Below, in pieces: positions 1 to 62,757 of a stretch of DNA of 64,000 bases. The DNA is from Corynebacterium sp. CNCTC7651 (lineage in GTDB: Bacteria; Actinomycetota; Actinomycetes; Mycobacteriales; Mycobacteriaceae). The notes under the pieces were generated by a model. It was not told the DNA's origin. It worked only from the letters and a program-made list of their open reading frames with translations, and made no database searches. A program made the translations under genes and the position numbers. The stretch lies in the NCBI RefSeq assembly GCF_021496665.1, contig NZ_CP071246.1, positions 1 through 64,000 of the forward strand, given 5' to 3'. Every line of letters starts with the position of its first letter. Within the stretch, counting starts at the first letter, position 1.

Positions 1-174
1 GTGCTGCAGCGTTTGGTTGCGAACGGGATGGTTGCTACGGAGGCGTCGGCAAGCACCCTGCTCCAAGACATGGGTGTGTTTGAGATGGGCGGCGCGGTGA
101 CCGTGGGGCTCGCGCCGTTCAACACCCAGGCGGACATTGTGCAGCTGACGCGCACGGTGGCCAGCCTGGCGTAG
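1..174 (+). CDS. Class V aminotransferase / cysteine desulfurase-like protein (C-terminal fragment)
   Basis: The reading frame is open from the first base of the window and ends with TAG at 172-174, giving the last 57 residues of a protein that starts outside. The tail reads ...GVFEMGGAVTVGLAPFNTQ and ends ...RTVASLA. This fits the small C-terminal domain of PLP-dependent class V aminotransferases annotated as cysteine desulfurase-like. The assignment rests on this short tail and on the neighbouring quinone oxidoreductase, a pairing I recall from Corynebacterium. The PLP lysine lies outside the window. The gene converges on the next one, with a GC-rich hairpin between them. Confidence 0.55.
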   Translation: MLQRLVANGMVATEASASTLLQDMGVFEMGGAVTVGLAPFNTQADIVQLTRTVASLA

Positions 175-176
175 GC

Positions 177-196
177 GGGGCCAGGCCGATGGCCCC
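177..196. terminator. Possible bidirectional hairpin between convergent genes
   Basis: GGGGCCA and TGGCCCC can pair around a 6-nt loop in the short gap between two converging stop codons. There is no clear T-run, so termination is an inference from position and stem. Confidence 0.35.
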
Positions 197-205
197 GGCC
201 CGGGA

Positions 206-1189
206 CTAAACCTCCGCGACCTCGAGGACGAGCTTGCCGGTGTTGTCGCCGGAATCCATGCGCTCGTGGGCTTTTGCGGCGTCGGCAAGCGGGAACGTGC
301 CCGTGATGGTGGGCTTGACCTGGCCAGATTCAATGAGCGGCCAGACGTGCTCCACGGTGGAGGCGACGATGTCCGCCTTCATCGGGCGCGGGCGGGCGCG
401 CAGCGTGGTGGCGTGGAGGGACTGGCGGCGCGGCATCATGCGGCCCAGGCTAATTTCGCCCTTCGGGCCGCCCTGCAGCGCGATGACCACGATCTGCCCG
501 TCCAGCGCGAGCGCCTTCACGTTTGGCTCCAGGTACGGCCCGCCGACCACGTCCAGGATCACGTCCGCCCAGCCCTTGAGCTCCTCGGCGAACTCCTGCT
601 CCTTGTAGTTGATGGTGATGTCCGCGCCAAGTTCCTTGCAGTACTCCAGCTTCTCCGCGCTTCCGGCGGTGGTGGCAACCTCGCAGCCCAGCGCCTTACA
701 CAGCTGGATGGCGAAGGAGCCGATGCCACCGGAGCCGCCGTGGATGAGCACCTTCTTCGGGCTGCCGTCCGCGTGCGGCTCGTGCACGCCGGCCAGCATG
801 CCCAGGTTGGACCACACGGTGCAGGCCACCTCGACTACGCCGGCGAGTTCCGTGAGGGTGAGGTTTGCTGGCCTGGGCATGAGCTGGCCCTCCGGGACCG
901 CGACGTACTCTGCGTAACCGCCGCCTGCCAGCAGGCAGCCCACTTCCTCGCCCTTCTCGCGGCCCGTGGTGCCGGGGTCTTCGATCACGCCGGCGCACTC
1001 GAGGCCGATAATCTCGGATTCGCCCTTCGGCGGCGGGTACTTGCCCTCCGCCTGGACAAGGTCTGCGCGGTTCACGCCGGCAGCGACAATCTTGACCAGT
1101 ACCTCCCCGTCCTGCAGCTCTGGGGTGGGTACGTCCTGCAGTTCGAGGGAGCGGGGGTTTTCAGCGTCAGTGATTTGGATAGCCTTCAT
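206..1189 (-). CDS. NADPH:quinone oxidoreductase, zinc-independent MDR family
   Basis: This 327-residue protein belongs to the quinone oxidoreductase branch of the medium-chain dehydrogenase/reductase family. It probably reduces quinones or related carbonyls with NADPH in the cytoplasm. The N-terminal catalytic domain carries GVNRADLVQAEGKYPPP and the motif GLECAGVI. The Rossmann domain has the nucleotide-binding stretch VLIHGGSGGIGSFAIQL. The clustered cysteines of a structural zinc site are absent, as expected for this branch. The frame is open further upstream, but MKAIQITDAEN is the family's usual start, and TACCCT (-10-like) ends 7 nt before this ATG, so the message is probably leaderless. 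The substrate is unknown. Confidence 0.85.
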   Translation of the reverse strand: MKAIQITDAENPRSLELQDVPTPELQDGEVLVKIVAAGVNRADLVQAEGKYPPPKGESEIIGLECAGVIEDPGTTGREKGEEVGCLLAGGGYAEYVAVPEGQLMPRPANLTLTELAGVVEVACTVWSNLGMLAGVHEPHADGSPKKVLIHGGSGGIGSFAIQLCKALGCEVATTAGSAEKLEYCKELGADITINYKEQEFAEELKGWADVILDVVGGPYLEPNVKALALDGQIVVIALQGGPKGEISLGRMMPRRQSLHATTLRARPRPMKADIVASTVEHVWPLIESGQVKPTITGTFPLADAAKAHERMDSGDNTGKLVLEVAEV

Positions 1190-1196
1190 GCGCCCC

Positions 1197-1202
1197 AGGG
1201 TA
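1197..1202 (-). promoter_or_regulatory. -10 element (TACCCT) for the quinone oxidoreductase gene
   Basis: On the minus strand TACCCT is followed by 7 nt and then the ATG. No ribosome-binding site is visible, consistent with a leaderless transcript. Confidence 0.5.
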
Positions 1203-2207: not shown

Positions 2208-2329
2208 TTGCTTTTCGACGCTCGCTTGTCGCGCCCCGTTGGCTCCGATCTCTCGCTCTGCCGGGGCACACATCGGTAGGCGGACGGCAAAACGTGCCCG
2301 CCGAAGCAGGGGCGCGAATCAGTCGTTTC

Positions 2330-4847: not shown

Positions 4848-4899
4848 GCTTTTCGACGTCCACCACAGCCGCCACACCGTCACCAGAAAAGAGGCCCAG

Positions 4900-6261
4900 A
4901 TGTCCACCATGCAACAGCGTGATGCCCTGCGCGAGCTAGAGAAAGTCGTCGAGACGTGGATGCGCGGGGATGACGCGGAGCAGATCTCCGGGCTGCTCGC
5001 GGAGGCGGAGATTAACGACATCATCCGCCTCATCGAGCGTTCCCCAGTCAAACGCGGCGCCGTCCTCTTCCGCCTGCTCCCGCCGGCCCGTGCCGGGGTG
5101 GTCTTCGACGCACTGGATCCGCGCCACCAGGCGGATATGGTCAACGCGCTGGGCAGCGACACCGTCGGCGCGTTCTTCGAGGAGATGGGCGCGGAAGACC
5201 GCGTCATGCTGCTGGATGAGCTTCCGGGCTCCGTCGCGGAGCAGCTGCTCAAAGACCTCAGTGAGAAAGACAAGGAAAACACTGACGCGGTCCTGGGGTA
5301 CGAGAAGGGGACCGTCGGCCGTGTGATGAGCCCGGAGATCCCGGAGATCTTCCCGGAGATGACGGCGCACGAGGTGCGGGAGCTGCTGCGTCAAGAGGAA
5401 GAGCACCTGGAGACGCTGTATACCCTGCCGGTGATCAACGAGGAGCGCCAGCTCCTCGGCATTGTGAAGCTCCGCCGCTTGTTTTTGGCCGACGGCGGCA
5501 CGGCGGTGGGCGATTTGGTGGAAGAGTCGCCGTCGGTAAGCGCGGTAGCGAATGCGGAGGAGACCGCGCGTTGGTTCCTGCCGCTGGGACTGCTGGCGCT
5601 GCCCGTGGTGGATTCCGGGAACTGCCTGGTGGGCATTTTCACGTTCGATGAGGCGCAGCACGTGGTGGAGAGCGAGGACACCGAGGACAGCGCCCGCCAA
5701 GGCGGTTCGGAGTCCCTGAAGCAGCCGTACCTGTCCACGCCGTTGACCAAGCTCGTTCGCTCGCGCATTGTGTGGCTTCTCGTCCTCGCCGTCTCCGCGA
5801 TCCTCACCGTCCAGGTGCTCGACATCTTCGAGGAGAAGATGGAGCAGGCCGTCGTGCTGTCGCTTTTCATCCCGCTGCTCACGGGCACGGGCGGCAACAC
5901 CGGCAACCAGGCCGCGACCACCGTCACCAGGGCTCTTGCGCTTGGCGACGTAAAGAAATCAGACATCCTCAAAGTCATGTGGCGCGAAGTTCGCGTGGGC
6001 CTGATGCTGGGTGCCGTGCTCGGCGGGCTGGGATTCGCACTTGCGTCCCTGGTGTACGGCCTGGATATGGGCATGGTGATCGGCCTGACGCTGCTTTCAA
6101 TCTGCACCATGTCCGCGACCGTGGGTGGGGCGATGCCGATTGTGGCCAAGACTGTCGGCGCGGACCCGGCGGTGTTCTCCAACCCCTTCATTTCCACGTT
6201 CTGTGACGCCACGGGCCTGGTGATTTACTTCCTCATCGCCACATCCATCCTCGGGCTCTAG
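4900..6261 (+). CDS. mgtE: Magnesium transporter MgtE
   Basis: A 453-residue MgtE-type Mg2+ channel/transporter. The N-terminal superhelical domain (about residues 1-125) contains FRLLPPARAGVVFDAL. Two CBS domains follow (about 125-250), then five transmembrane helices. The conserved pore sequence PLLTGTGGNTGNQAATTVTRAL, containing the GNxGNQ-type motif, is present, as is NPFISTFCDATGLVIYF near the end. The first ATG preceded by a purine-rich site (AAAAGAGG) is MSTMQQRD; upstream codons in the same frame overlap the tRNA terminator. In this family the cytoplasmic domains close the pore when Mg2+ is plentiful. No Mg2+ riboswitch fits in the 50-bp gap upstream. Confidence 0.93.
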   Translation: MSTMQQRDALRELEKVVETWMRGDDAEQISGLLAEAEINDIIRLIERSPVKRGAVLFRLLPPARAGVVFDALDPRHQADMVNALGSDTVGAFFEEMGAEDRVMLLDELPGSVAEQLLKDLSEKDKENTDAVLGYEKGTVGRVMSPEIPEIFPEMTAHEVRELLRQEEEHLETLYTLPVINEERQLLGIVKLRRLFLADGGTAVGDLVEESPSVSAVANAEETARWFLPLGLLALPVVDSGNCLVGIFTFDEAQHVVESEDTEDSARQGGSESLKQPYLSTPLTKLVRSRIVWLLVLAVSAILTVQVLDIFEEKMEQAVVLSLFIPLLTGTGGNTGNQAATTVTRALALGDVKKSDILKVMWREVRVGLMLGAVLGGLGFALASLVYGLDMGMVIGLTLLSICTMSATVGGAMPIVAKTVGADPAVFSNPFISTFCDATGLVIYFLIATSILGL

Positions 6262-6354: not shown

Positions 6355-8771
6355 ATGAGGATCACCCCGAAGACTCGCACCGTCGCTGGGCTGTCGCTGG
6401 CAGCCGCGGTTGCTGGCACCGTCGCTATTGCACCTGTGCAGGCGCAGGAGCCGACTGAGACCACCCCGGCGCCCGCCTCGACCCAGGAGAAGGTTGACAC
6501 CGGTGCCGTTGTCCGGGGGATCAACGGGATTCAGCAGAACTTGGAGAAGCGAACACCAAGGTCGTGCGCCCGGGCAGCGGTACCGCCCACGCGCGCTACT
6601 CCGTCAGTGGCTGGACCTACACCGCGGCGGCGTACAACCCCGTCAACAACCGCATCTACGCCATTTCCACGGGCGAGAACGGCAAGCCGGCTGGCCACCT
6701 GCTGCGCATGTTCACGGACCGCGAGGGCGTGTCTGACCTCGGCGCCCTGAGCCTGGGCGCCGATTTCCCCACGAACACGATCGCATCCGCCGCGTTTACC
6801 TCCCGCGGCGAGCTGGTCCTGTTCTCCGGCCCGAACTTCCGCGTCTTCGACCTGTCCAAGGACAAGGTGGAGGGCGAGGTCACCAACATTGCCGCCGTCC
6901 GCGCGCGCACTGGGGAGCTTTTGCTTGACGACGGTGTGGGCAACGTCGGCGTCCCCAGCGCCTGGGCCTCTGTTGTCGCCGACGGCAAGGCGAAGGAGCT
7001 GTACGCCGTCTCCCGCGACCCGCAGGGCGCTCCGTACCTGTGGACGCTGAACATTGATTCCGGCCGCGTCCAGATCGCGCCGCTGCAGGTTGCGACGGGC
7101 GTTGACCTGGAGCCGATCGGGGAGCTGAACTACGCGTTCACCAAGGACGCGAAGGATGCCAAGAGTGCCGCCACCCTGGTTTTCGCGGACGATCAGGCCC
7201 GCACGATCGAGGTGCGCGACGGCGCTGTCGTGGCCACCTACCTGGGCCGCGAGATTGTGGATAACTTCCGCGAGATCGCGTACCTGCCCAAGGGTGCCGG
7301 CTACAAGGCCATGACCCAGTTTGCCAAGCCCGCGCCGGAGGCGGCCGAGGCCGCTGCTGCACCGGCGGGCGAGGGCGTGCAGGCATACGACACTGCTGTG
7401 CCGTCCATCCCGACCGTGATCGCCCCGCAGTTCGAGCCGACCGCGTCTCCGGTCCAGACCGCGCAGGTTGAGGCCGGCGCACCGGCCCCGGCAGAGGTTG
7501 CGGACCGCCCGGTGGTCTTCACCGTGGTGGATGAGAAGGGCCACTCCCAGCAGGGCGTAGACATTGAGATCGAGGGCACCGACATCTCCGGCGTGACCGA
7601 CAAGAACGGCCAGGCCAAGCTGGACGTGCCGGGTGTGGATGTTGTTGCCAACGTGGACGGCGCCGTGTCCGTGGTCCGCGCGGATGCGCAGTCCCACCGC
7701 GTGACCCTGCTGGCGGACAAGACCGTCTCCGTCACCCCGAACGCGGAGGGTGTGTATGAGGCCCACAAGCTTGCCGTCACCGTCAAGGACGTCAACGGTC
7801 TCGCCGTGGAAGGTGCGACGGTGACTGGCCTGGTGGGCACCACCGAGGTGTCGGTGCAGACCAATAAGGCCGGCCTGGCGGAGATTGACATCCCGGAGCT
7901 GAAGACCAAGGAGGCGTACAGCTTCAAGGTGTCCAAGGACGGCACCGTCCAGGACTTCACCGCCACTAGCGATGACCAGGCGAAGTCCGTCACCATGGCG
8001 AACCTGATCATCGCCACCGCTCCGGTGACCACCACTACCTCGACCACCTCCACCACCCGCCGCAGCACCCAGACCACGGGTGCCCGCTTCCACGACGCGA
8101 CCATCCGCGTCCGCGTGGTCACCGAGGGCGGCGACCCGGTGCAGGATGCCGAGGTCTACAGCGTGGACGGCCTGAACATCCAGACCCGCGGCGTGAACTA
8201 CACCTCCGGCCTGACTAACCGTTACGGCGAGGTGGACGTCTTCATCCCGGGCAACACCGGCAACGGCCAGAAAGTTCGCCTGGGCATCCGCACCGCCCCC
8301 AGCGGCTACAGGACCGTGACGCAGCAGGTGGACCGCGACGAGGACGGCGTGACCATGACGCTGCCTAAGGCGCCGACCACGACGTCGTCAAGCAAGTCCC
8401 GCCCCCAGGAGATCCTGGAAGTGATCAACGAGGTGCAGCCGCTCATCGCTGCCCTGGGCGGTTCCGCGGCGATCGGCGCTGGCCTGCGCGGCCAGCCGGT
8501 CACCACCACCCGCTCCGTCCCCGCCGGCACCTCCGTTGTGCTGACCGGCACCAACCTGGCCGGTATGTCCACCGGTCGCACCACTAGCGTCCCGCAGGCC
8601 ACCGGCAGCGTGGTGGTGGAGAACACCCGCACGACCACCAGCGTGTCCGTGGAGGTCTACGAGGAGCTGGCCAACACCGGTACCCCGATGCAGGCTGTGA
8701 TCACCCTTGGCCTGCTGTCCGTGTTGGTCGGTGGTGCCTATGTGGCTATGGGGCGCCGTCGAGAAGCGTAG
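6355..8771 (+). pseudogene. Sortase-anchored (LANTG) surface protein, disrupted by a 1-nt deletion
   Basis: The gene starts with a signal peptide, MRITPKTRTVAGLSLAAAVAG...APVQAQE, after an AGAGGTAA-like site. Near 6547-6550 it shifts frame: the first frame runs into low-quality sequence and stops at 6750. The next frame (open from about 6543 to 8771, 735 aa from a GTG at 6564) continues ANTKVVRPGSGTAHARYSV. One missing G in GAGAAGGCGAAC would account for this. The body has a propeller-like region (SGWTYTAAAYNPVNNRIYAIS), then carboxypeptidase-regulatory/CnaB-like repeats (VVFTVVDEKGHSQQGVDIEI; VTVKDVNGLAVEGATV), a Thr/Ser linker and a third repeat. The C-terminus has LANTG, a hydrophobic helix and the positive tail GRRREA, a class E-type sorting signal. 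If the shift is real, the anchored product is not exported. Confidence 0.75.
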
Positions 8772-8774
8772 AGC

Positions 8775-9794
8775 TTAGAACACCTCGACGCGGCCGCCCA
8801 CGGCCTCGATCTGCTGCAGCTGCTTCAGCCACCCCGGTCCGCCGGGGTGGACGCGCATCACGGGGCGCGAGGAAATCCGCACCGGCGACACGGACTCGCG
8901 GCGCGCGCCGGAACGCGCGGCCATGCGGGTGTGCGCGCGGTTGCCGGCCTCCGCGAGGTACTGCATGTCCGGGCGCTCGGCGCTCAGGCCTTCGCGCGCG
9001 CCCTCCAGCAGCCCGATGAACTCGTCGAGCACCTTGACCAGCTGCTCCGCGTTCGTCTCGCACATGTTGCGCACTAGCGAAGGCTGCGTCGCTGCCACGC
9101 GCGTCGCGCCCTTGAAGGAGCCTGCAGCGAGCGACTGCGCGAGCGTGTTCCCGCGGTCGCCCACAATGGACAGCGCCTCCGCGATCACGTGCGGCAGGTG
9201 GGACACGCGCGCCACGGCCTCGTCGTGCTTCGCGGCGGACACGGGCACGGCCTCCGCCCCCACCAGCGACGCCATGCGGCACACCTGCGTGAACAGCGCC
9301 GCCCACCCCTCGGGTACGCGGTCCGAGGCCGCCGCGAAGTCGTACGTGACCACCCACGCCGCGCCCGCGAACAGCCCCTCGTGCGACGCACCCCAGCCGG
9401 AGGACTCGGTCCCCGCCATCGGGTGCCCGCCCACGTAGCGCTCGAGCATTCCATGCTTTTCGACGATCCCTTCAACCGGCCCCTTCACCGAGACCACATC
9501 GGTGATTCCGCAGCTCGGCGCGTGCTCCGCGATGGCCACGACGATGTCCTCCACCACGTCGAACGGCACCGCGATGACGATCAAGGCGCCGTCTGCCTCC
9601 GCGCGCGCGAGCACCGCGGGCAGGTCCGTGGACACCTCGAAGCCATCCGCGGCGGCCTGGCGCGCGCCCGCGTTGGAGTGGGTGTAGCCGTAGACGCGCT
9701 CGCCGGCCTTGGCCAGGTCGCGCATCAGCGAACCGCCGATCAGGCCGTTGCCGATGATGCAGACGGGGGGCAAAACGTGTGCGCTGGCGTTCAT
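8775..9794 (-). CDS. tyrA: Prephenate dehydrogenase
   Basis: A 339-residue TyrA-family enzyme that oxidatively decarboxylates prephenate (or arogenate) in tyrosine synthesis. The N-terminal Rossmann domain opens with CIIGNGLIGGSLMRDL. The catalytic region has GGHPMAGTESSGWGA, with the conserved histidine and the HPxxG-type motif. The helical dimerisation domain contains VSHLPHVIAEAL. TAGACT ends 7 nt before the ATG and no Shine-Dalgarno sequence is present, so a leaderless message is likely. It converges on the preceding surface-protein gene with only 3 bp between stop codons. There is no fused chorismate mutase or ACT domain. Confidence 0.92.
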   Translation of the reverse strand: MNASAHVLPPVCIIGNGLIGGSLMRDLAKAGERVYGYTHSNAGARQAAADGFEVSTDLPAVLARAEADGALIVIAVPFDVVEDIVVAIAEHAPSCGITDVVSVKGPVEGIVEKHGMLERYVGGHPMAGTESSGWGASHEGLFAGAAWVVTYDFAAASDRVPEGWAALFTQVCRMASLVGAEAVPVSAAKHDEAVARVSHLPHVIAEALSIVGDRGNTLAQSLAAGSFKGATRVAATQPSLVRNMCETNAEQLVKVLDEFIGLLEGAREGLSAERPDMQYLAEAGNRAHTRMAARSGARRESVSPVRISSRPVMRVHPGGPGWLKQLQQIEAVGGRVEVF

Positions 9795-9846: not shown

Positions 9847-10329
9847 ATGAGCCAGGATTATCAGGACGGGTTTGCCGTGACCGTTGCGCGCCGCGACGGC
9901 GGCTGGGTGGTCCGCGAGTTCAAGGACGATTTCACCAGCTTGGACACTTCCGTCGCCGCCGTGCGTGCCCTGCGCAGCGAGGGTGCGGCGTTTGCCATCC
10001 TCAACGTTGAGGAGGATTACCTGGTGGTGGTGCGCCCGGGCCCGAGCAGCATCCGCGTGCTCATCTCGGACGCGACGATGGCGGTGGACGACGATTTCGC
10101 GGCAGACGTCCTCGCCGAGGCCGGCATCGAGGTCCCGGACATCGACCCGGACGAGCTCGACGACGTGGACGCGTGGGCCGAGGGCGATTTCGCGATCTTC
10201 GCGGACCTCGGGCTTTCGGAGGAGCGCTTGAGCATTTTGCTTGACGACGATGCAGATCCCGACGACCTCGCCGACACCATCGCCGCCGAGCTTGGCTTCG
10301 CCGACGAGCTTGCCGACGCCCTTGACTAG
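9847..10329 (+). CDS. Putative tRNA adenosine deaminase-associated protein
   Basis: A 160-residue acidic protein (MSQDYQDGFAVTVARRDGGW...) with Asp/Glu-rich C-terminal segments. It belongs to the actinobacterial family annotated as tRNA adenosine deaminase-associated because it regularly lies directly upstream of tadA. Here the stop codon overlaps or abuts the next gene's start, so the two are almost certainly co-transcribed. The internal LDDDADPDDLADTIAAELG run is rich in acidic residues. Its molecular role is not established; an accessory role with TadA is inferred from linkage only. The start was chosen at the ATG following a -10-like TACCCT by 9 nt. Confidence 0.75.
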   Translation: MSQDYQDGFAVTVARRDGGWVVREFKDDFTSLDTSVAAVRALRSEGAAFAILNVEEDYLVVVRPGPSSIRVLISDATMAVDDDFAADVLAEAGIEVPDIDPDELDDVDAWAEGDFAIFADLGLSEERLSILLDDDADPDDLADTIAAELGFADELADALD

Positions 10330-10828
10330 CCCGCGCCAGCCCCGCGAGGCGCGCGAGCCGCGCCAGAGCGCCGGGGAGCGCGAAGCCGCCCGCCGGATGC
10401 GCGAGGCCATCGCGCTGGCCAACACAACCCCGCCGGGCGACGTGCCCGTTGGCGCGATTGTCTATTCGGCCGCTGGGGAGGTGGTGGGGCGGGGGGTGAA
10501 CCGTCGAGAAGCGGATGGGGACCCCACGGCCCACGCGGAAGTTGCCGCGATACGCCAGGCAGCGCGGACCCTGGGCTCCTGGCGCCTGGACGGGTGCGAG
10601 CTGGTGGTGACGCTGGAGCCGTGCACGATGTGCGCCGGCGCGATCCTAGGCGCGCGGGTGAAGTCCGTGGTGTTCGGGGCGTATGAGCCGAAGACGGGGG
10701 CGTGCGGGTCGCTCTTGGACGCGCTGCGGGACCCGCACCACCTGCACACGGTGGAGGTGCGCGGGGGCGTGCTGGAGGCCGAAACGGCCCAGCTCATGAG
10801 CGACTTTTTCGGCGGTCTGCGCGCGTGA
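10322..10828 (+). CDS. tadA: tRNA-specific adenosine deaminase
   Basis: TadA deaminates A34 to inosine in tRNA-Arg(ACG), two copies of which are encoded in this window. The zinc site is seen in HAEVAAIRQA (His ligand and catalytic Glu) and PCTMCAGAIL (the two Cys ligands). The core starts with MREAIALANTTPPGDVPVGAIVY. The start is uncertain. The TTG at 10322 overlaps the upstream stop (TTGACTAG) and gives about 168 residues. The ATG at 10397 gives 143 residues and matches the usual N-terminus. The longer frame back to 10241 overlaps the upstream gene and seems unlikely. Confidence 0.9.
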   Translation: MTSPRQPREAREPRQSAGEREAARRMREAIALANTTPPGDVPVGAIVYSAAGEVVGRGVNRREADGDPTAHAEVAAIRQAARTLGSWRLDGCELVVTLEPCTMCAGAILGARVKSVVFGAYEPKTGACGSLLDALRDPHHLHTVEVRGGVLEAETAQLMSDFFGGLRA

Positions 10829-11369: not shown

Positions 11370-13778
11370 GTGGCGAAGCTGTTGTTTAAGCTGGGGCGCT
11401 GGTCCTACCTAAACCCGTGGCGCGTGATTGTCGCCTGGCTGCTCATTTTGGCGGCGTCTGCGGGTGTGGCTTTTTCGCTGATGCGCCCCTTCACGTCGGA
11501 GTTCGCCATCACGGGCACCCCGGCGATTGAGGCGCTGGACACGCTGGACAGGAACTTCCCCGGCCAGGGGGACGTGGCCACCTCGCCGTCGGTGAACTTG
11601 GTGTTCGCCGCCCCGGAGGGCCGCCAGCTCACGGAGCCCGAGTTCATGGCGGCGATGGATGCCACCGTGCGCCACCTCGAGGACAACTTGCAGATGGAGG
11701 GCACGGAGCGCTTCGGCAACCCGGTGCGCGTGAACGCGGAGCTCCAACGCACCCTTATCGGCGAGATGACCGCCATGGGCCTGCCGGAGGAGAGCGCGCG
11801 GGCGGACGCCTACAACATTCGCATGGTGTCGGACTCCGGGAGCATTGGCTTTACGACGTTCGAATTCGCAGCCGAGTCCCAATTCCAAGTCACGGATGCG
11901 GACCGGCAAGCGGTCGCGGACGCGATGCAGATCGGCCGCGATGCCGGCCTGCAGGTGGAGGCCGGCGGCCCCGGCTACGGCGACCCGATCGAGATCAACA
12001 CCACCTCCGAGATGATCGGCATCGGCATCGCGTTTCTGGTGCTGCTGGTCACCTTCGGGTCCTTGGTGGCGTCGACGATGCCGATCGTGACCGCGGTTGT
12101 GGGCGTGGGCATCGGCGCGCTGGCCGTGCTCACCGCCACCCACTGGGTGGAGCTGAACGACGTCACCCCGGTGTTGGCCGTGATGATCGGCCTGGCCGTA
12201 GGCATTGACTACGCCCTGTTCATCCTGTCGCGCTACCGCCAGGAGCGCCGCACACTGCCCGGCCCGGACGCGGCCGGCATGGCGGTGGGTACCGCCGGCT
12301 CCTCCGTCGTCTTCGCCGGCACCACCGTGTTCGTGGCGCTAGTGGCGCTGGTACTAGCGGACATTGAGTTCCTGTCCTGGATGGGCATCTCCGCCGCGTT
12401 CACTGTGCTCGTGTCCGTGTTCGTCGCGCTGACCATGCTGCCGGCGCTGCTGGGCGCGTGGGGCGACCGCGCGTTCGGCGGCCGCATCCCCGGCATCGCC
12501 GGCCATGCTGGTCCGGGATCGCGCCCGGCGAAGGACTTGGATAAGCGGTCGGTTGGTAGGTCTTGGGTGAACGTCGTCAAGCGAATGCCCGCGGTAGTGA
12601 TGGCGGCGGTGGTGCTGGGGCTGGGTGCGATGAGTGCCCCGGTGCTGGGGCTGGAGATGGCGCTGCCGTCGGACACCACCTCCAACAAGGACACCACGCA
12701 GCGCAAGGCCGCGGACCTGATGGCGGAGGGTTTCGGCCCGGGTGTGAACGCGCCGCTTTTGATTGTGGTGGACGCGCACGGCGTGAACCCGGACGCGGAG
12801 ATCCTGCAGCCGTACATGGCCGCGGTGCCGGATGAGGCGGGCGGGCGCGCGGAGAAGGCCGCGCTGGCGTCGTTTCTTTACGCCGTGAGCGAGGCGAATT
12901 CCGTCACCGGCGTGGTGCACGCGCAGCTGGTGGGTGTGAACGAGGACCTGACCGCCGCGCAGATCCTGGCCACGCCGGACGGTGGCCCGGAGGAGGAGCG
13001 CACGCTTGCCGTCGCGCACGGCCTGCGCGAAAACAACCGCCAAGTGGAGGACGCCACCGGCGTGACTATCGGCCTGACCGGCCTGACCGCGGTGCAGATG
13101 GACATCACCGAGGAACTCGCCAGCGCGATGCCGCTCTACCTGGGCATTGTGGTGGGGTTGGCAATCATCCTGCTGATGCTGGTGTTCCGCTCCATCATGG
13201 TGCCGTTGGTCGCGGGCCTGGGCTTTTTGCTCTCCGTCGGCGCCGCGTTTGGCCTCACCGTCCTGGTGTGGCAAGACGGCCTGTGGGGGCTGGTGAACAC
13301 GCCGGGGCCGATCTTGTCCTTCCTGCCCATTTTCATGATCGGCGTGACGTTCGGCCTGGCCATGGATTACCAGGTGTTCCTGGTCACCCGCATCCGCGAG
13401 CACTACCTGAAGCTGCGCCGCGCCGGCGACCCGGACGCGGAGCTGCACGCCGTGGAGGAGGCCACGGTGGAAGGCTTCACGCAGGGCGCACGCGTGGTCA
13501 CGGCGGCGGCGATCATCATGATCGCGGTGTTCATCGCGTTCATCAACCAGCCGCTACCGTTTATCCAAATCTTCGGCTTCGCGCTCGGCGTGGCCGTGTT
13601 CTTCGACGCGTTCTTCGTCCGCATGGCGCTGGTCCCCGCCACGATGTTCCTCCTCGGCCGCAGCACGTGGTGGATGCCGCGCTGGCTGGACCGCATCCTG
13701 CCGGAGGTGGACGTCGAGGGCACCGGCATCGAGCACATCCTCGACGACAAGCGCGCACCCCAGGAGGCTCACGCATGA
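11370..13778 (+). CDS. MMPL-family RND transporter
   Basis: An 802-residue inner-membrane protein of the MmpL branch of the RND superfamily. It has the duplicated 6-helix layout: the first helix VIVAWLLILAASAGVAFSL, a large extracytoplasmic loop to about residue 200, a helix bundle including VMIGLAVGIDYALFILSRYRQERR, a second large loop, and a second bundle including FGLAMDYQVFLVTRIREHY. The paired GxxxDY motifs in the helices correspond to the proton-relay Asp-Tyr pairs of MmpL3-type proteins. The family exports lipids such as trehalose mycolates; the substrate here is unknown. The GTG start is chosen for AGAAAGGA 8 nt upstream. It overlaps tgt by 4 nt (ATGA), so the two are translationally coupled. 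Confidence 0.88.
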   Translation: MAKLLFKLGRWSYLNPWRVIVAWLLILAASAGVAFSLMRPFTSEFAITGTPAIEALDTLDRNFPGQGDVATSPSVNLVFAAPEGRQLTEPEFMAAMDATVRHLEDNLQMEGTERFGNPVRVNAELQRTLIGEMTAMGLPEESARADAYNIRMVSDSGSIGFTTFEFAAESQFQVTDADRQAVADAMQIGRDAGLQVEAGGPGYGDPIEINTTSEMIGIGIAFLVLLVTFGSLVASTMPIVTAVVGVGIGALAVLTATHWVELNDVTPVLAVMIGLAVGIDYALFILSRYRQERRTLPGPDAAGMAVGTAGSSVVFAGTTVFVALVALVLADIEFLSWMGISAAFTVLVSVFVALTMLPALLGAWGDRAFGGRIPGIAGHAGPGSRPAKDLDKRSVGRSWVNVVKRMPAVVMAAVVLGLGAMSAPVLGLEMALPSDTTSNKDTTQRKAADLMAEGFGPGVNAPLLIVVDAHGVNPDAEILQPYMAAVPDEAGGRAEKAALASFLYAVSEANSVTGVVHAQLVGVNEDLTAAQILATPDGGPEEERTLAVAHGLRENNRQVEDATGVTIGLTGLTAVQMDITEELASAMPLYLGIVVGLAIILLMLVFRSIMVPLVAGLGFLLSVGAAFGLTVLVWQDGLWGLVNTPGPILSFLPIFMIGVTFGLAMDYQVFLVTRIREHYLKLRRAGDPDAELHAVEEATVEGFTQGARVVTAAAIIMIAVFIAFINQPLPFIQIFGFALGVAVFFDAFFVRMALVPATMFLLGRSTWWMPRWLDRILPEVDVEGTGIEHILDDKRAPQEAHA

Positions 13779-15028
13779 CATTCACTCCGCGCACCTTGCT
13801 TTACGACGGTCCCTTCCAACCCGGCAAGCACGGCCGCACCGGCACGATTCACACGCCGCACGGGGATATTCAGACGCCCGCGTTCATCCCGGTGGCCACA
13901 AAGGCGACGGTGAAAACGCTCACGCCGGAGCAGGTGCGCGAGACCGGCGCGCAGGCGATCTTGTCCAACGCGTACCACCTGTACCTGCAGCCCGGCCCGG
14001 ACATTGTGGATGAGGCCGGGGGCGTGGCCGCGTTCGAGCACTGGGACGGGCCGACGTACACCGACTCCGGCGGGTTCCAGGTGATGAGCTTGGGCGTTGG
14101 TTTCCGCAAAGTGCTGGCGATGGACACCGCGGGGCTTTCGGAGGGCGACATCCGCGCCGCCAACAAGGACCGCATGGCCCGCGTGGATGATGACGGCGTG
14201 GATTTTAGAAGCGTCATCGACGGCTCCAACCACCGCTTCACGCCCGAGGTGTCCATGCAGATCCAGCACCAGCTGGGCGCCGACATCATTTTCGCGTTCG
14301 ACGAGCTGACCACGCTGGTGGATACCCGCGATTACCAGGAGCATTCCGTCGAGCGCACGCGCCGCTGGGCCAAGCGCTGCCTGGATGAGCACGACCGCCT
14401 CACCCGCGAACGCGCCGCCACCCACCCCGACAGGCCCGAACAATCCTTGTGGGGCGTGGTGCAGGGGGCGCAGTATGAAGACCTTCGTCGAAAAGCAACC
14501 CGCGGCTTGTTGGAGCTGGACCGCGAGGCGCGCGAGGAGGGCAAGCGCGGCTTCGGCGGCTTCGGCATCGGCGGTGCCCTGGAGAAGGAGAACCTGGGCA
14601 CGATTGTGGGCTGGGTGACGGATGAATTGCCCGTGGATAAGCCAAGGCACCTGCTAGGCATCTCCGAGCCGGACGATATTTTCACCGCGGTGGAGGCGGG
14701 CGCGGACACGTTTGATTGCGTCGCGCCCACGCGCCTCGGCCGCCGCGGCGGTGTGTACACGCTGGATGGGCGCATGAACCTGACGGCCGCGCGCTTCAAG
14801 CGGGATTTCGCGGGCGTGGACGAGGAGTTCGGCGGTTACGTGTCGCGCAATTACTCCCGCGCGTACATCCACCACCTGCTCAAGGCCAAGGAATACCTGG
14901 CCGGGACCCTGTGCACCATGCACAACCTGGAGTTCATGGTGCGGCTGGTGGACAACATCCGCGCAGCCATCGACGGCGGGTATTACGAGGCCTACCGCGA
15001 CGAATTCCTGGGCCGCTACTATGCCTAG
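13775..15028 (+). CDS. tgt: tRNA-guanine transglycosylase lacking the zinc-site cysteines
   Basis: A 418-residue TIM-barrel enzyme that exchanges G34 for queuine or preQ1 in GUN-anticodon tRNAs. The active-site motif [11 protein letters not shown] and the second catalytic region [13 protein letters not shown], with its Asp nucleophile, are intact. In the C-terminal zinc subdomain the CxCxxC normally preceding RNYSRAY is replaced by FGGYVS (codons around 14827-14844), leaving only the later histidine in TMHNLEF. The start ATG overlaps the MMPL stop, and the end overlaps gluQRS by 8 nt. No queuosine biosynthesis genes are visible, so salvage of queuine is the more likely source. Confidence 0.9.
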
Positions 15029-26409: not shown

Positions 26410-26448
26410 ACTCGGGGGCACTTCACGCTTTACGACGAAAGGTTGAAA

Positions 26449-31672: not shown

Positions 31673-33547
<1,875 letters not shown>

Positions 33548-34937: not shown

Positions 34938-35024
34938 GGGCTGGGAAGAAACGTCGTAAAGCATGAGCCCCGGAAGCCTGTGGATAGCTGATCAGAATTC
35001 CACAGCTTATTGAAAAAGTGCAGC

Positions 35025-35965: not shown

Positions 35966-38274
<2,309 letters not shown>

Positions 38275-38312
38275 GGCCTCGCGGGGGCGCCAAGATTCGG
38301 GCGTCGTAAAGC

Positions 38313-44796: not shown

Positions 44797-44817
44797 TTCG
44801 AGCGGACGTCGATAAGC

Positions 44818-46264: not shown

Positions 46265-47788
46265 TTAACGTCCTCCCTGGTACACGCCCACGGCGTCGGT
46301 GCCCAGCACGGCCGTGGTGTACTGGTCCACGTTCAGCAACGCGTCGGCGCCGCTGGTGGTGATGCCCCACATCTGCCCGGCAAAGATGAACATTGCCAGG
46401 GACAGGAGCATCATGCTTAACGACGGCAGCAAATACGGCCACCGCACATTCAACGCAGCCGGGTAGTGCTGCATCGGGCGGCCCCAGAAGACCTTGCGCC
46501 AGACGCGCATCATGGACAGCAACGCGCCGAAGGACGCGACGATGATGGTGCCGATGACTACCCACGACGTGACGTCGCTAGGCTTCGCCGCGGCGAGCAT
46601 GATGGTCACCTTGCCGAAGAGGCCGGAGAACGGCGGGAAGCCCACGATGGAGAACGCGCCGGCCACGAACACGGCCGAAGTGATCGGGTCGCGCCGGGCG
46701 AGGCCGGAAAGCTTGCTCATGGTGCCGGTGCCGTAGGTTTCCTCGATCGCGCCGGAGTTCAGCGTGAGCGCGCCGACGGTGATCATGTGGTGCAGCGTGT
46801 ACAACAGGCCCGCGGCGAGCGCGTAACGGGCTTGCTCGCCGCCCCCGCCGGTGAAGGCGAGCATGACCAGGATGAACGGCATGCCGTTGACCATCTGGTA
46901 CGCCAGCACGCGGCGGATGGTGCTTTCCGCCAGACCGGCGAAGCCGCCGATGAGCATGGAGATGACCATGATGACGATGATCAGGGTGTTCCACCGCTCA
47001 TCCATGTCGAAGACGACCACCCAGATGCGGTAGAGCATGTACACCGCCACCTTGGTGTGCAGGCCCGAGAAGAGCCCCATGACGGCCGCGGAGGTGGAGG
47101 GGTAGGTGCGCGGCAGCCAGGTGTGCACCGGGAAGACACCGGCCTTCGCCGCGATGGCGATGACCACAATGCCCATCGCCACCGTCACCGGGCCGTTGCC
47201 GGCGGCGGCGCCGCGCAGGGCCGCGATGTTCACGGCCCCGGCCACGCCGTAGACGTAGCCGACGCCGAGCACCAGAAGCGTAGAGGCCGCCAGGTTCACC
47301 AGCACGAAGGCGCGGGCGGACAGGAGGCGGTGGCGGGTACCCGTCATGGCGATCAGGCCGTAGGAGGGCAGGAGCATGACCTCGATCATGACGAAGAAGT
47401 TGAACAGGTCCGCGGTGAGCAGCGCGCCGGAGACACCGGTGATAAGCACCAGCGTCAGGGGCGTGAAGTAGCGGGCCTGCGTCTCGCCGGCCACGATGGC
47501 AAACCAGTTGGATGTGAGCGCCACGATCATGGTGGTGACCAGCATGATGGCGGAGAATTGGTCGCCGGCAAAGGAGATGCCCACGCCGGCTTGGTAGCCG
47601 CCGACGGTGTGGCTGATCGTGCCGTGCTCGCCGGTGTAGAGGTACAGCCAAACACCGCCGGCGAGGTTGATGGCCGGGATGATGATTGAAAGTGCGTCGT
47701 TGAGCGCCTTGCTCGGGGAAAGCGCCGTGACGGCGGAGATGATCAGCGGGAGCGCGACGAAGATGGGCAGGATTGCGTCTGCGGTCAT
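46265..47788 (-). CDS. mrpD: Na+/H+ antiporter subunit MrpD
   Basis: A 507-residue, roughly 14-helix protein homologous to complex I subunits. The key sequence MTGTRHRLLSARAFVLVNLAASTLLVLG and the lysine/His-rich channel region KAGVFPVHTWLPRTYPSTSAAVMGLFSGLHTKVAVYML are present. It forms part of the proton/sodium path. It overlaps mrpC by 4 bp. Confidence 0.92.
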   Translation of the reverse strand: MTADAILPIFVALPLIISAVTALSPSKALNDALSIIIPAINLAGGVWLYLYTGEHGTISHTVGGYQAGVGISFAGDQFSAIMLVTTMIVALTSNWFAIVAGETQARYFTPLTLVLITGVSGALLTADLFNFFVMIEVMLLPSYGLIAMTGTRHRLLSARAFVLVNLAASTLLVLGVGYVYGVAGAVNIAALRGAAAGNGPVTVAMGIVVIAIAAKAGVFPVHTWLPRTYPSTSAAVMGLFSGLHTKVAVYMLYRIWVVVFDMDERWNTLIIVIMVISMLIGGFAGLAESTIRRVLAYQMVNGMPFILVMLAFTGGGGEQARYALAAGLLYTLHHMITVGALTLNSGAIEETYGTGTMSKLSGLARRDPITSAVFVAGAFSIVGFPPFSGLFGKVTIMLAAAKPSDVTSWVVIGTIIVASFGALLSMMRVWRKVFWGRPMQHYPAALNVRWPYLLPSLSMMLLSLAMFIFAGQMWGITTSGADALLNVDQYTTAVLGTDAVGVYQGGR

Positions 47789-54203: not shown

Positions 54204-57200
54204 TTGCCGCGCTACAGCACGGCGAATGAGATCAGCAGAAACACCATCTCGCTCGACGACACGGAGTACCACGACCCGCAGTACGACAAGCGCGAGAAAA
54301 CATTCACTTCCGGCATCGAGGCTGACGGCAGTCTGACGGATCAGCCGCAGCAGGTCGTGTTCAAGCAGGTCCCGGACTTGATCGCGGACCTGGTGAAAGA
54401 TAAAGGCGCCGGTGGCTTCAATGCCAAGGTTCAACTGGACGAGCGATACGTTTTCGCGGGCTGGACCGCCGAGATGGATCCGGCGACCTACGATGTCACC
54501 GTCACCGCTCCCGCGAATGCTGAGCCCGGTACCTTCGCGCAGCCGAGGGTCGTCGTGGAGTACTCGAACGGCTCGAAGGATGAGCTGAGCCTCCTCGTGA
54601 TCGTTGATCCGAACAACACCCAGGTCACTGATTTGGTGCGCCCGGGCCTCTCCAAGGGCAAGGTGACTGATCCCATCACCGCCCAGATCGCTCTGAAGCC
54701 CATTATGAAGGGCTACAAGGCGGTCCACCCGGCGAAGTATGAGGTTGACCCGGCCACTGTTCCGGCCGGCTGGACCGTGACCGTCGACAACACGGGCAAG
54801 GTCACCGCAGTTGCTGACGAATCCGTTGCGCCGGGTTCCGTCATCACGCCGAAGATAACGGCGACCTACCCGGACGGCACCGACGACGTGGTCGAGCCCC
54901 AGTTCCAGGCAATCGTGGACGTCAAGATTCCCGATTACGACACGGTGACCAACAAGCCGAACTCCGACGTCACGTTGACACCTGCGATCCCTGAGCGCGG
55001 TCTCAGCGGTAACACCACCGACGAGGCTCCGCAGCGCTACACCTTCGAAGACGGCACGACTACGCTCACCCATACGGATGACAGCGGCACGTGGACGCTC
55101 AAGATCAACGAGAGCACGGGTGTTATCACCACGACGATTCCGAAGACAGCGCCCGAAGGCTACGTCCTGAACGTTCCGGTTCTCGCGCACTATGAGCAGG
55201 AGAAGCCGCAGAAGGTGAAGGGCACCATCGTCGTCATTAAGGGCGACCTTGCTCCCGTCTACTCTGTGGAGACCACCGGTCCGGGCAAGGCAGTCAACCA
55301 TCAGATCGCGGATGCGCCGGAAGGTTCGACGTTCTCCTTCGGCAAGAACCCTGACGGCTCGCCGATCACCGAGATGACAACCGAAGACGGCTGGATGTAC
55401 ACGATCGACCCGACAACCGGTGTCGTCTCATCCACCCCGCCGGCTGACGCCAAGCCGGGCGACAAGAACACCGCAACCGTCAGAGTTGAAACCGTGGAAG
55501 GTTCGGTCGCCCAGGTTCCCGTCACCACCGTGGTGAAGCTGACCAACAGCTGGGAGGCTGAACCCGCCTACCCGGTCGAAACGGTCTACCCCGGTGACAC
55601 GGCAACGCTGCCAGTCACCCTGAATAAGCCGGACAGCGTGAAGGTTGCAGCAGACAACCCCTACGAGTTGGGTGCTGTTCCCGATGGTTGGACTGTCAGC
55701 ATCGACAACGACGGCAAGATCACTGCAACCGCACCGGCGGATGCCGAGCCGGGCAGCACGGTTGAGATTCCCGTCACGGTGACCTACGAAGATGGCTCGA
55801 AGGACACCGTTAAGGCCGTCGTGAATGTCGTCGATGTTCCGACACGCCCGGTGCCGTTCGGAGTGGAGTACGTCTACGACGACACAATTCCTGCCGGCGA
55901 GTACAAGACTGTCACCAAGGGTGTGGCAGGTGAAGAGAAGCAGAAGCGTGACGGCACGTGGGAGCAAACCACCGCGCCGACCAACGAAGTCGTGCACGTC
56001 GGCACCAAGCCGGCCACTGCCGCCAAGGATGTGACCTGGACAGCACCGATTCCGTACAGCACCACCACCCGCCCGAACCCGGCGCTCGCTCCGGGTGAGA
56101 CGAAGGTCGTCCAGCAGGGCGTGAACGGTGAGCGCACCTACACCGCAAAGTTCACTGCCACCGGCGACCAAGCGTCGGTCGTCGAGTCCGAGGACACCAA
56201 GCAACCGGTCGAGGAGATCATCGAGTACGGGCCGCGCCTCGACGACCAGGAACTGGTCACCGAGACGACTCGCAAGATTCCGTTCGAGACCACCATCGTC
56301 TACGACAACACGCTCGAGGCGGGTACTCAGGTCGTCGATACGCAGGGCGTTGTCGGCGAGGAGAAGGTCACGAGCACGCAGAAGCTTGTCGACGGCAAGC
56401 CCTCCGGCGAACCGGTGGTCACGACCACCACGGTGACGCCGAAGCAGGATGCTGTGATCCGCGTGGGCACTAAAACCGAGGGTGCGAACACCGTCGAGCA
56501 CACTGAGCCGGTGCCGTATGAGACGAAGGTTGAGTACGACCCGAACCTGCCGGCTGGCACCTACGAGGTTGTGACGCCGGGTAAGGCTGGCGAGAAGACC
56601 GTCACGGTCACCCAGACCATCGTCAACAGCCAGGTCACTGACACGAAGCGTGAAGAGAACGTCACCACGCAGCCGGTGACTGAGGTGATCAAGGTCGGCA
56701 CGAAGCAGGCCACCGCGACCGACAAGGTGGAGTGGACTGAGCCGATTCCGTTCTCGACGGTCGTGCGCCCGAACTCGGACCTGAAGCCGGGTGAGGTCAA
56801 GACTGTCCAGAAGGGTAAGAACGGCGAGGCGAAGTACACCGCGACGTTTGAGGGAACCAATGGCCAGGCGACGGTGACCGAGTCGAAGGATCGCACCGAG
56901 CCGACCGATCGAATCATTGAGTACGGTCCGACGATTGCGGATCAGACCCTGACGTCGACGACGACGAACCCGGTGCCGTTCAATACGACGTTCGTGGCGG
57001 ATCCGAACTTGCCGGCGGGTCAGCAGGTCGTCGACAAGCAGGGCGAGAACGGTGTGGACACCGTGACTGCGACGCAGGAGATCAAGGACGGCAAGCCGGT
57101 CGGTGAGCCGAAGATCACCACGCAGCGCACGAAGGAGCCTGTCGACGCTGTCGTGCGCGTGGGCACGAAGACCGAGGGCCAGACCGTCAACACGTACGAA

Positions 57201-61238: not shown

Positions 61239-61251
61239 GCGGTAGCGCGGC

Positions 61252-61296
61252 AAAAGCCGCCACTCACCTGTGAAATACGGGAGGGTGGCGGCTTTT
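61252..61296. terminator. Bidirectional terminator after the adhesin gene
   Basis: AAAAGCCGCCAC and GTGGCGGCTTTT form a perfect 12-bp stem with A- and T-tracts for both directions. The 11-mer CGTCGTAAAGC starts immediately after it at 61297. Confidence 0.88.
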
Positions 61297-61316
61297 CGTC
61301 GTAAAGCAAGAAAGCC

Positions 61317-62060
61317 CTAGAACGGGAGCTTGATGCCCAGCTTCGGAAGCGCGGTGAACACGCCGAACAGGGCAACCAGCACGCCGATTACGGCGCTGGC
61401 CACCTTGTCGAAGTTGCTCGGCGCGGAGCTGAGCTTGGAGGAAAGGTCGAGGGTGCTTGCGGTGGCGGCCTCGGGGTAGGCGACCGCGGTGCTGGTCTTC
61501 AGCCGGCACGCCTCCTTGGCCTGGCGCTCCGCCTTGTCGAATGCCGCTTGGCGCTTGGCCACGTCGCCGGAAGGGGTGGCAAGCCACGCGGCGGTGAGCT
61601 TGGTCAGGGTGTCGGCATCGGCGGTGGAGTCCTTGGCGAGCTGGAAGGTGGCGTCGGGCACCGCGGAGGTCTCGGTCTTGGGATCCGCCTCGACGCGGTA
61701 GTTGTGGGTGTAGTCCCGGCCCTCGAGGGTGATCTTGTCCGTGGGCGAGGTGGCGGCAAAGGTGGCGCGGGCCTGCTCGTAGGTGGCCTTCACACCCTCG
61801 GGGAGCGCGGCGGGGTCCTTCGCGGCGTTGGGGTAGACCGTCTCGACGGCTCTGATGATGTCGCGGGCGTGTTCGTGGTCGCCGAGTTTCTTGGAATCGT
61901 CGAAAAGCGTGTAGCCGAAGGCCTGCTCCGCCTTGCTCAGCGTGACCTTGCACGTGTTGTCCGCGGCGCGCGGGCCGATGGTCGCGGCGTGCGCGGGGGC
62001 GAGGGCGGTCGCGGCGATGGTTGCGGTGGCGGCAGTGGCGATGATGCGACGGGTGGACAT
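61317..62060 (-). CDS. Secreted/membrane-anchored hypothetical protein
   Basis: A 247-residue protein with a signal peptide (MSTRRIIATAATATIAATALAPAHA). The mature helical region contains LSKAEQAFGYTLFDDSKKLGDHEHARDIIRAVE and two cysteines (NTCKVTL; KEACRLK). It ends with a single hydrophobic helix KVASAVIGVLVALFGVFTALPKLGIKLPF. It lies just beyond the adhesin and converges on it through the shared terminator, so it might be a partner in surface display. No family is recognised. Confidence 0.7.
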   Translation of the reverse strand: MSTRRIIATAATATIAATALAPAHAATIGPRAADNTCKVTLSKAEQAFGYTLFDDSKKLGDHEHARDIIRAVETVYPNAAKDPAALPEGVKATYEQARATFAATSPTDKITLEGRDYTHNYRVEADPKTETSAVPDATFQLAKDSTADADTLTKLTAAWLATPSGDVAKRQAAFDKAERQAKEACRLKTSTAVAYPEAATASTLDLSSKLSSAPSNFDKVASAVIGVLVALFGVFTALPKLGIKLPF

Positions 62061-62172
62061 TGGGCTCCCTTCAGTAGGTGGGTGGAACGTGTCACATTGG
62101 ATGGTGCCTGGGGGCGTGTTGCGGGAGCGTTAACGCGGGGAAGGGGTGGGGAGGTGGTGGTAGAACGGGGGT

Positions 62173-62757
62173 ATGACAAAGATTCGAACCATTGCCATGG
62201 TCGCTGCGGCGGCGGCCGCGTCCGTTATTGGTATTGCTGGGTGTGCGTCGGAAAGCGCGGAGCCGTCCACCCCGGTGACCGGCACCAGCGTCCCGGGCGG
62301 GGAGGGCCACGGCGGGCACGGCGGGCACGACCACCCCGAGGACGGCGGCCCAGCTCCGGAGGGTATCGAGGAGGCGGCGGACCCGAAGTTCCCGGTGGGC
62401 ACCGAGGTGATCCTGACCGCGGACCACATGCCGGGCATGGAAGGTGCGCCCGCGACCATCAGCGGCGCGTTCAAGACCTACACCTACGCCGTCACCTACA
62501 CGCCAACCGATGGCGGCGAGCCGGTGGTCAACCACAAGTGGGTGGTGCAGGAGGAGCTGGAGGGCGCGGGCACGCAGCGGCTTGCCGACGGCGCAACCGC
62601 AGTCATCCTGGCCGAGCACATGAGCGGGATGAAGGGTGCAGAGGCGACTATCGAGTCCTCCACGGACGAGACGGTGTACATGGTGGACATCGACACCCCG
62701 GACATGACCATGAAGCGCCACAAGTGGGTCGTGGAGAGCGAGATCCAGCCGAAGTAG
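62173..62757 (+). CDS. YdhK/DUF1541-family lipoprotein with a His-rich segment
   Basis: A 194-residue lipoprotein (lipobox around VIGIAGCASES). A His/Gly cluster GGEGHGGHGGHDHPEDGG follows, likely metal binding. Two tandem DUF1541 repeats each contain a D/E-HM-x-GM motif (TADHMPGMEGAPATISGAF; LAEHMSGMKGAEATIESS) and an H-K-W-V-V ending (NHKWVVQEEL; RHKWVVESEI). The Met/His motifs suggest copper or another soft metal, by inference. It is divergent from the secreted hypothetical gene. Confidence 0.8.
   Translation: MTKIRTIAMVAAAAAASVIGIAGCASESAEPSTPVTGTSVPGGEGHGGHGGHDHPEDGGPAPEGIEEAADPKFPVGTEVILTADHMPGMEGAPATISGAFKTYTYAVTYTPTDGGEPVVNHKWVVQEELEGAGTQRLADGATAVILAEHMSGMKGAEATIESSTDETVYMVDIDTPDMTMKRHKWVVESEIQPK

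Follow-up and report, generated by a model that had tools for sequence, protein, structure and literature searches.

Strong preferences for particular sequences during DNA uptake are known in two bacterial families, the Pasteurellaceae and the Neisseriaceae, and molecular drive through biased uptake is the standing explanation for the uptake signal sequences (USS) of Pasteurellaceae (Mora et al. 2020, PMC7811141). In the Neisseriaceae, DNA uptake sequences (DUS) come in dialects with a common core, and these dialects serve as barriers (Frye et al. 2013, PMC3630211). Micrococcus luteus, an actinobacterium, requires flp pili for transformation, together with homologs of comEA and comEC (PMC6370729). 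Here we describe a short bipartite word, GCTTNNCGACG, in Corynebacterium sp. CNCTC7651, starting from positions 1 to 64,000 of contig NZ_CP071246.1 (the window) and extending to the whole genome of 2,453,109 bp and to related species. The word appears to match the DUS of Neisseria and the USS of Haemophilus, dialects included, but in an actinobacterium. From these comparisons we consider it quite probable that GCTTNNCGACG and its flanks serve natural transformation as a DNA uptake sequence, spread by uptake-biased recombination.

The resemblance to both systems is close but incomplete. Like the DUS (PMC3630211), the word is non-palindromic and of 10-12 bp, with dialects that broadly follow phylogeny. 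Its sequence is unrelated, it has a free 2-base center that the DUS lacks, and it occurs in fewer copies per genome than the thousands reported for DUS. DUS dialects keep an invariant core, CTG, whereas those found here keep CGA and the following G at position 11, and the Neisseriaceae use type IV pili with ComP, whereas our organism is an actinobacterium with a Tad/Flp locus. The USS (PMC7811141) are likewise present at about one copy per kb, evolve by point mutation, combine a core with AT-rich flanks (clear here in this genome only), are under-represented in newly acquired DNA and in coding sequence, and have no identified receptor. They differ in their unrelated sequence, in that single-mismatch sites are not in excess here, and in forming terminator stems, whereas here single sites come after terminators.

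On both strands of the window we found 57 exact matches to GCTTNNCGACG, compared with a mean of 1.19 and a maximum of 5 in 100 dinucleotide-preserving shuffles. An earlier note, made from the sequence of the window alone, had counted about 50 copies by hand where composition predicted about one. The count was short by seven (5531, 5940, 39952, 42942, 46415, 49508, and 62246). Of the 50 positions given there as first bases, 48 are exact; 15412 and 56394 are instead the last bases of copies at 15402 and 56384. Genome-wide, the word occurs 1,418 times (695 on the forward strand, 723 on the reverse), compared with 70 (30 + 40) for the same pattern read backwards, which served as our control; paired counts below are likewise forward/reverse. 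The enrichment is thus genome-wide and not confined to the window, as the note's reading as a dispersed motif demands. An unbiased scan of 8- to 10-mers over 464 kb (20 sampled stretches totaling 400 kb plus the window), scored against a third-order model, returned fragments of GCTTNNCGACG as its top words, for example GCTTATCGAC at 56 versus 0.6. Across the 20 sampled 20-kb stretches copies are evenly spread, with a mean of 9.45 per 20 kb (0.47 per kb) and a variance of 8.4.

A word this frequent might arise incidentally from codon usage, from codon-pair bias, or from the local composition of a GC-rich genome, and 103 of the 184 coding copies do share one frame, xxG CTT nnC GAC Gxx on the coding strand. 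However, when codons were exchanged among synonymous positions within one gene across 377,661 called coding bases, 30 such shuffles yielded a mean of 18.0 copies (standard deviation 3.5, maximum 26), so the 184 observed represent a roughly tenfold excess over a null that preserves codons but not codon pairs, and the over-representation claimed in the earlier note survives this comparison. The word is also rarer in coding DNA, with densities of 0.49 per kb in genes and 0.72 between them by our own gene calls, although about three quarters of sampled copies (184 of 246) lie inside genes. Finally, it falls to background level in the 140 genomes from outside the genus and in close relatives whose dialect is a different one. 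We regard a by-product of this kind as highly improbable.

The word is characteristic of the genus. Among 151 sampled Corynebacterium genomes, this one included, the ratio of GCTTNNCGACG to the reversed control was at least 4 in 104, below 2 in 43 (hereafter, negatives), and in between in 4. In a wider sample of the family (151 genomes drawn, 11 of them Corynebacterium), none of the 140 genomes from 30 other genera exceeded 2.7-fold, and weak rises of up to 2.6-fold (G250) were taken as composition. By LepA comparison across 80 loci, the nearest relatives of our genome are C. stercoris (98%), C. bouchesdurhonense (97%), and C. glaucum (95%). Among 50 of these 80 genomes in which the word was counted, totals are high in C. 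stercoris (791/767), C. glaucum (769/784), C. amycolatum (794/828), C. silvaticum (576/546), C. tuberculostearicum (431/444), and C. propinquum (594/602), and near or below control in C. jeikeium (20/20), C. dentalis (10/10), C. spheniscorum (21/14), and C. mendelii (20/31).

De novo word discovery in samples of the negatives, using a Markov model and codon shuffling with overlapping 9-mers merged, recovered relatives of the same word: GCTTGCCGATG in G006 and G052, GCTTGTCGATG in G110, CTTGnCGATGC in G143, a relaxed nnTTnnCGACG in G076, and a T-run followed by CGACGCCAC in G009 and likewise in the intergenic sites of G014 and G147. Codon-shuffle discovery gave no dialect in G013 or G106. We distinguish an A dialect, the CGACG form, from a B dialect, the CGATG form, and probably a third, CGACGCC. 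Counted genome-wide, the B-dialect word GCTTNNCGATG occurs 492/529 times in G006 (control 4/3), 517/457 in G104, 520/560 in G110 (control 10/12), 337/343 in G052, 372/364 in G093, 299/326 in G137, 528/535 in G143, and 606/578 in G150, giving totals of 625-1,184 in these eight negatives. The range becomes 625-1,337 over nine genomes when G142 is included, which has 672/665 copies and also retains the CGACG form (187/165); the genome of the window has 15/6. The third word, CGACGCCACC, reached at least four times control in 7 of the 43 negatives (G009, G014, G038, G080, G132, G134, and G147), for instance 146/148 versus 17/16 in G009 and 183/198 versus 29/32 in G014, and is also raised in some positives, such as G018 (121/119 versus 17/17).

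Other words also came up in the codon-shuffle comparisons. In samples L239-L243 of G083, a 49% GC genome, the palindrome GTGCGCAC was found 18 times versus 1.0 in the null, and is possibly a separate iterated motif. Samples L219-L223 of G132 held 108 copies of CGTCGACG versus 34, and samples L068-L071 and L198 of G146 held 119 of CGGCGTCC/GGACGCCG versus 45; these are possibly further dialects.

HIP1 is a short palindromic word that is very frequent genome-wide in cyanobacteria and has a lineage-specific distribution. Its upkeep by a methyltransferase, restriction, or repair system has been proposed, and GCTTNNCGACG, being genus-restricted, highly iterated, and variable between lineages, could be a motif kept in the same way. 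Unlike HIP1, however, it differs from its own reverse complement, while occurring on both strands; its two parts are separated by a gap of 2 bases, and the plasmids we examined have almost none of it (see below). Restriction in particular fits poorly, as type I sites usually have gaps of 5-8 bases and sites under restriction are normally depleted instead of being enriched 20-fold. Upkeep by any such system seems to us a distinctly improbable origin for the word.

The CGATG dialect requires three changes on a LepA tree with 98 rows, or two if the weakly labeled rows L131 and L124 are set aside. For the clearest pair of sister clades with different dialects, we aligned one orthologous stretch of about 20 kb, 74% identical between clades, from the C. 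tuberculostearicum clade (CGACG, five members) and from its sister clade of KPL1814, MSK130, ACRPS, and an uncultured genome (CGATG, four members). Nine of 33 site columns are common to both clades, one of them aligned across a gap. In these nine, the first clade has CGACG in 38 rows and CGATG in 2, whereas the second has CGATG in 34 of 36 and CGACG in none. Rows without a site mostly align by substitutions, with few columns involving gaps. Sites are also retained between species: over 20 non-independent pairs of A-dialect loci, 188 of 226 sites were intact, compared with 77 of 204 for permuted words of the same bases, and within the CGATG clade 58 of 69 were intact compared with 27 of 50. Sites are thus gained and lost by point mutation and conserved beyond matched words, and conservation in related species, which the earlier note had named as a check, is borne out. 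Shared sites have thus persisted while almost every one of them had a single base changed. A passive binding site would hardly behave in this way, whereas uptake-biased recombination predicts it.

Plasmids are nearly free of the word. Five plasmids from A-dialect host species, one of them covered for 50 of 52.6 kb, carry a single copy in 148 kb, where about 52 would be expected if they were as rich in the word as their hosts. The C. striatum plasmid pTP10 (50 of 51.4 kb; host dialect uncounted) has seven copies, five of them in an 8.6-13.6 kb segment with mshC and a dihydroorotate dehydrogenase gene, which looks to be of chromosomal origin, and two in the tetAB region. Phage BFK20, whose host dialect was also uncounted, has one copy in 43 kb. 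Separately, a C. glucuronolyticum plasmid (L269, 11423-17135) has no CGACG form and three CGATG copies, all within ABC/ECF transporter genes, a possible trace of a B-dialect donor.

These same data invite a different reading, in which a nucleoid, segregation, or condensation protein binds the word chromosome-wide and its scarcity on plasmids reflects that role. Such a chromosome-organizing site would fit the spread of copies across the whole chromosome (although the window is denser), the five nearly word-free plasmids, and the retention of sites between species. It accounts poorly for a coordinated one-base change at shared sites, which is hard without drive, and for three quarters of sampled copies lying inside genes at tenfold the codon null. 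Strand orientation also argues against it. Chi and KOPS (FtsK-orienting polar sequences) are over-represented asymmetric chromosomal words that are skewed to the leading strand, whereas 134 of the 246 sampled copies here are on the leading strand and 112 on the lagging strand (p = 0.18), with dnaA at 2.307 Mb and the terminus assumed to lie opposite. An assignment by local GC skew gave 119 to 127 and was noisy in 20-kb pieces. With copies balanced between the strands we rejected a Chi or KOPS identity, and the earlier note's comparison to Chi-like sites is unsupported. A chromosome-organizing role more generally we hold to be unlikely. While locating dnaA, we also observed six weak DnaA-domain matches on the G000 contig (for example 70133-70420 and 1172638-1172925), which share the same 263-aa open frame and E-value and are perhaps copies of an insertion sequence (IS) helper ATPase gene.

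The genes that an uptake system would use are present. In this genome holA, comEC, and comEA adjoin (L076:7885-11058), with ComEA having SLBB and helix-hairpin-helix domains and ComEC a Competence domain; DprA is present as well, and a tadZ-tadA-tadB-tadC-flp-tadE-tadF locus, named from gene order and likeness, lies at contig 89.7-93.9 kb. Across the genus sample, ComEC was found in 151 of 151 genomes, and a T2SSE ATPase passed the curated cut-off in 145 of 151; all 31 tad loci, from positive and negative genomes alike, contained Flp, TadE, and TadF, and ComEA was present in 99 of 108 com loci, some of them truncated. Micrococcus luteus (PMC6370729) is likewise an actinobacterium that has flp/tad genes along with comEA and comEC and lacks a comG cluster, and by analogy its Flp/Tad-pilus system is likely the type of machinery at work here, although the passages of that review consulted here mention no uptake sequence for it. 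In G137, which carries 625 copies of the CGATG dialect, the ComEC match at about 1654107-1657000 of C2 is partial and ComEA is garbled in the aligned piece, perhaps reflecting a recent loss of competence or an assembly error.

We infer a receptor, biased uptake, drive, and transformability from these observations, and the steps would be as follows. A surface receptor of the Corynebacterium competence machinery, either part of or served by the Tad/Flp pilus, or located at the mycomembrane, would prefer DNA bearing GCTTNNCGACG, and ComEA and ComEC would import one strand. Because site-rich DNA would be taken up and recombined more often, point mutations that make or restore sites would spread by molecular drive, and the word would build up, wherever its presence is tolerable, to about 0.6 per kb. 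If the receptor came to prefer another form, genome-wide rewriting would follow and give rise to species dialects (CGACG, CGATG, and probably CGACGCC). The likeness to DNA-uptake sequences suggested in the earlier note is strongly supported by genome-wide density, by dialects that differ coordinately at shared orthologous sites, by the near absence from plasmids, and by the com and tad genes, all of which point toward uptake.

The anatomy of the sites was read from 65 intergenic copies in this genome, which give a consensus that is G-rich from -9 to -7, followed by TTTT at -4 to -1, GCTT-TT-CGACG, T at +12, C at +13, TT at +16/+17, and then a C-rich stretch. The AT-rich positions are -4..-1, +4/5, +12, and +16/17, and stricter gene calls, leaving 58 sites, gave the same flank consensus; in genic sites the flank signal is blurred by coding. 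In the third dialect, 23 sites of G009, G014, and G147 have a T-run ahead of the core. The specificity of the word is sharp, with the only excess among single-mismatch words in coding DNA being a T to G change at position 3 (48 versus 9.8). Close opposite-strand pairs were seen twice in the sample (L002 8612/8628 and L016 5767/5789).

Some sites adjoin terminators, raising the alternative of a short mobile or terminator-associated repeat copied around the genome. Nine of the 65 intergenic sites do have a terminator-like structure no more than 15 bases away, compared with 2.05% of intergenic positions, and copies 2210, 4848, 38302, and 44807 of the window directly prolong the T-run of a terminator. 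These four are visible in the sequence; a fifth contact that the earlier note had listed, 61297, is weaker. A copied repeat should not, however, give site-less rows that mostly align by substitution, three quarters of sampled copies in genes, or central bases that vary, and we give this origin very little credence.

Several findings weigh against the word being an uptake sequence. The window has 0.89 copies per kb versus 0.58 for the genome (Poisson p 0.001), and we found no reason for this. The 43 negatives comprise 8 genomes with the CGATG dialect, 7 with the third word, and 28 with no recognized dialect, two of which have the CGATG form in 213 (G072) and 159 (G083) copies. In the sister-clade alignment, 24 of the 33 site columns are not common to both clades, and one of these, 19510, has CGACG in 2 of 4 B-clade rows. 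The five nearly word-free plasmids are lower in GC, and their lack of sites would equally fit a chromosome-organizing site. AT-rich flanks are clear in this genome only, together with the T-run of the third dialect; sites from the com-region loci of other A-dialect species (62, or 37 by stricter calls) have a C-rich flank downstream. Single-mismatch words in coding DNA show no excess, at 237 versus 276 in the null, and the link to terminators is modest.

The machinery and the literature add to these points. All five of the dialect-less negatives that we examined (G013, G053, G065, G106, and G127) keep com and tad genes, so having the machinery is no predictor of the word; uptake may be unselective in such genomes, or their dialects may have gone unseen. 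No receptor emerged, as residues of ComEA, Flp, TadE, and TadF never tracked dialect in both sister contrasts. Among the literature matches listed, which leave most subscription papers and preprints outside their scope, there was no Corynebacterium uptake sequence and no natural transformation. The letters of the word do occur in published texts, some on C. glutamicum, which we judged unrelated by title and which are perhaps primers. A survey of spaced motifs gives CRISPR-related pairs for Corynebacterium (PMC5217627).

Three candidate correlates of dialect or of the word itself were set aside. A valine in the helix-hairpin-helix of ComEA is found in 12 of 13 B-dialect rows, but also in the A-dialect C. 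tuberculostearicum clade, and an arginine in TadF is found in 9 of 9 B rows, but also in A-dialect G005. ComEC open frames are shorter than 630 aa in 86 of 101 positives versus 11 of 40 negatives (145 of 151 lengths used). We dropped this correlate because open frames are not protein lengths (741 versus 532 in G018, 727 versus 556 in G143) and because the long forms cluster in a few clades. Ten ComEC proteins that we examined had no extra Pfam domain above cut-off.

The individual copies in the window are given here as exact pattern matches with their strand, with remarks on intergenic position taken from our own gene calls. GCTTGCCGACG occurs at 44..54 (-), 280..290 (-), 10308..10318 (+), 35495..35505 (+), 49508..49518 (+), and 62580..62590 (+). 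GCTTTTCGACG is found at 2210..2220 (+) and 4848..4858 (+), immediately past the terminators behind a first and a second tRNA-Arg, respectively, and at 9455..9465 (+), 14486..14496 (-), 22452..22462 (-), 23338..23348 (+), 23626..23636 (+), 50370..50380 (-), and 61898..61908 (-). Two copies each are found of GCTTACCGACG, at 5531..5541 (-) and 23695..23705 (+), of GCTTGGCGACG, at 5940..5950 (+) and 42942..42952 (+), and of GCTTTCCGACG, at 26228..26238 (-) and 62246..62256 (-), the latter intergenic. GCTTGACGACG lies at 6923..6933 (+), 8383..8393 (-), 10239..10249 (+), 12572..12582 (-), 22623..22633 (+), 28851..28861 (-), and 41810..41820 (+), and GCTTCTCGACG at 8757..8767 (-), 10502..10512 (-), 17257..17267 (+), and 24552..24562 (+). 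GCTTTACGACG is present at 11848..11858 (+), 13798..13808 (+), 15402..15412 (+), and 31951..31961 (-), between genes at 26427..26437 (+), 33695..33705 (+), 34952..34962 (-), and 61297..61307 (-), and immediately past a terminator at 38302..38312 (-). The sites of GCTTCACGACG are 16357..16367 (-), 28770..28780 (+), and 35395..35405 (-), and those of GCTTGTCGACG are 24726..24736 (+), 37884..37894 (+), 56384..56394 (+), and 57029..57039 (-). GCTTATCGACG occupies 27479..27489 (+), 27899..27909 (-), 29968..29978 (+), 30258..30268 (-), 33861..33871 (-), and, immediately past a terminator, 44807..44817 (-). Three forms occur once, all on the + strand: GCTTTGCGACG at 30024..30034, GCTTCCCGACG at 39952..39962, and GCTTAACGACG at 46415..46425.

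Centers of TT, TA, or AT, put at about half of copies in the earlier note, make up 24 of the 57, slightly less than that. Both IS elements are free of copies, as it had stated, with none in 18641-19990 (Transposase_mut) or 20265-21452 (rve). Its statement that no copy lies between the two tRNA-Arg genes is off by one, as copy 2210 sits just inside that block. The order tRNA-Arg(acg), terminator, motif copy occurs twice, at 2103-2220 and 4742-4858, flanking a 2.5-kb block whose open reading frames (ORFs; 2330-3721 and 3690-4475) match no Pfam family; the arrangement resembles an inserted element whose tRNA end has been duplicated. Elsewhere in the window, an ORF at 53514-53930, which closely precedes a 2344-aa ORF at 54204-61238, encodes the final part of a putative adhesin domain (PF20592). 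Over-represented words in samples L001-L004 (80 kb of G000) include GATAGCGCAC and CGTTGTGCGC, perhaps members of a local repeat family.

Corynebacteria are actinobacteria with a mycomembrane. Judging from the genomes compared here, we think it likely, with slightly less assurance than for the uptake role of the word itself, that Corynebacterium has independently evolved sequence-specific uptake, which would add a third family to those with uptake sequences, and the first that is not proteobacterial; a Tad/Flp pilus would probably do the work across the mycomembrane. The dialects would then constitute a genus-wide code for sexual isolation, with more than one switch in its history, and natural transformability would extend to most of the genus. 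If so, an independent actinobacterial case would make it possible to ask which parts of the design recur, and the sister clades of the A and B dialects would offer a ready comparison for finding the receptor. It would also predict natural transformation in a genus of medical, industrial, and microbiome importance, where a species' dialect would foretell its partners in gene exchange.

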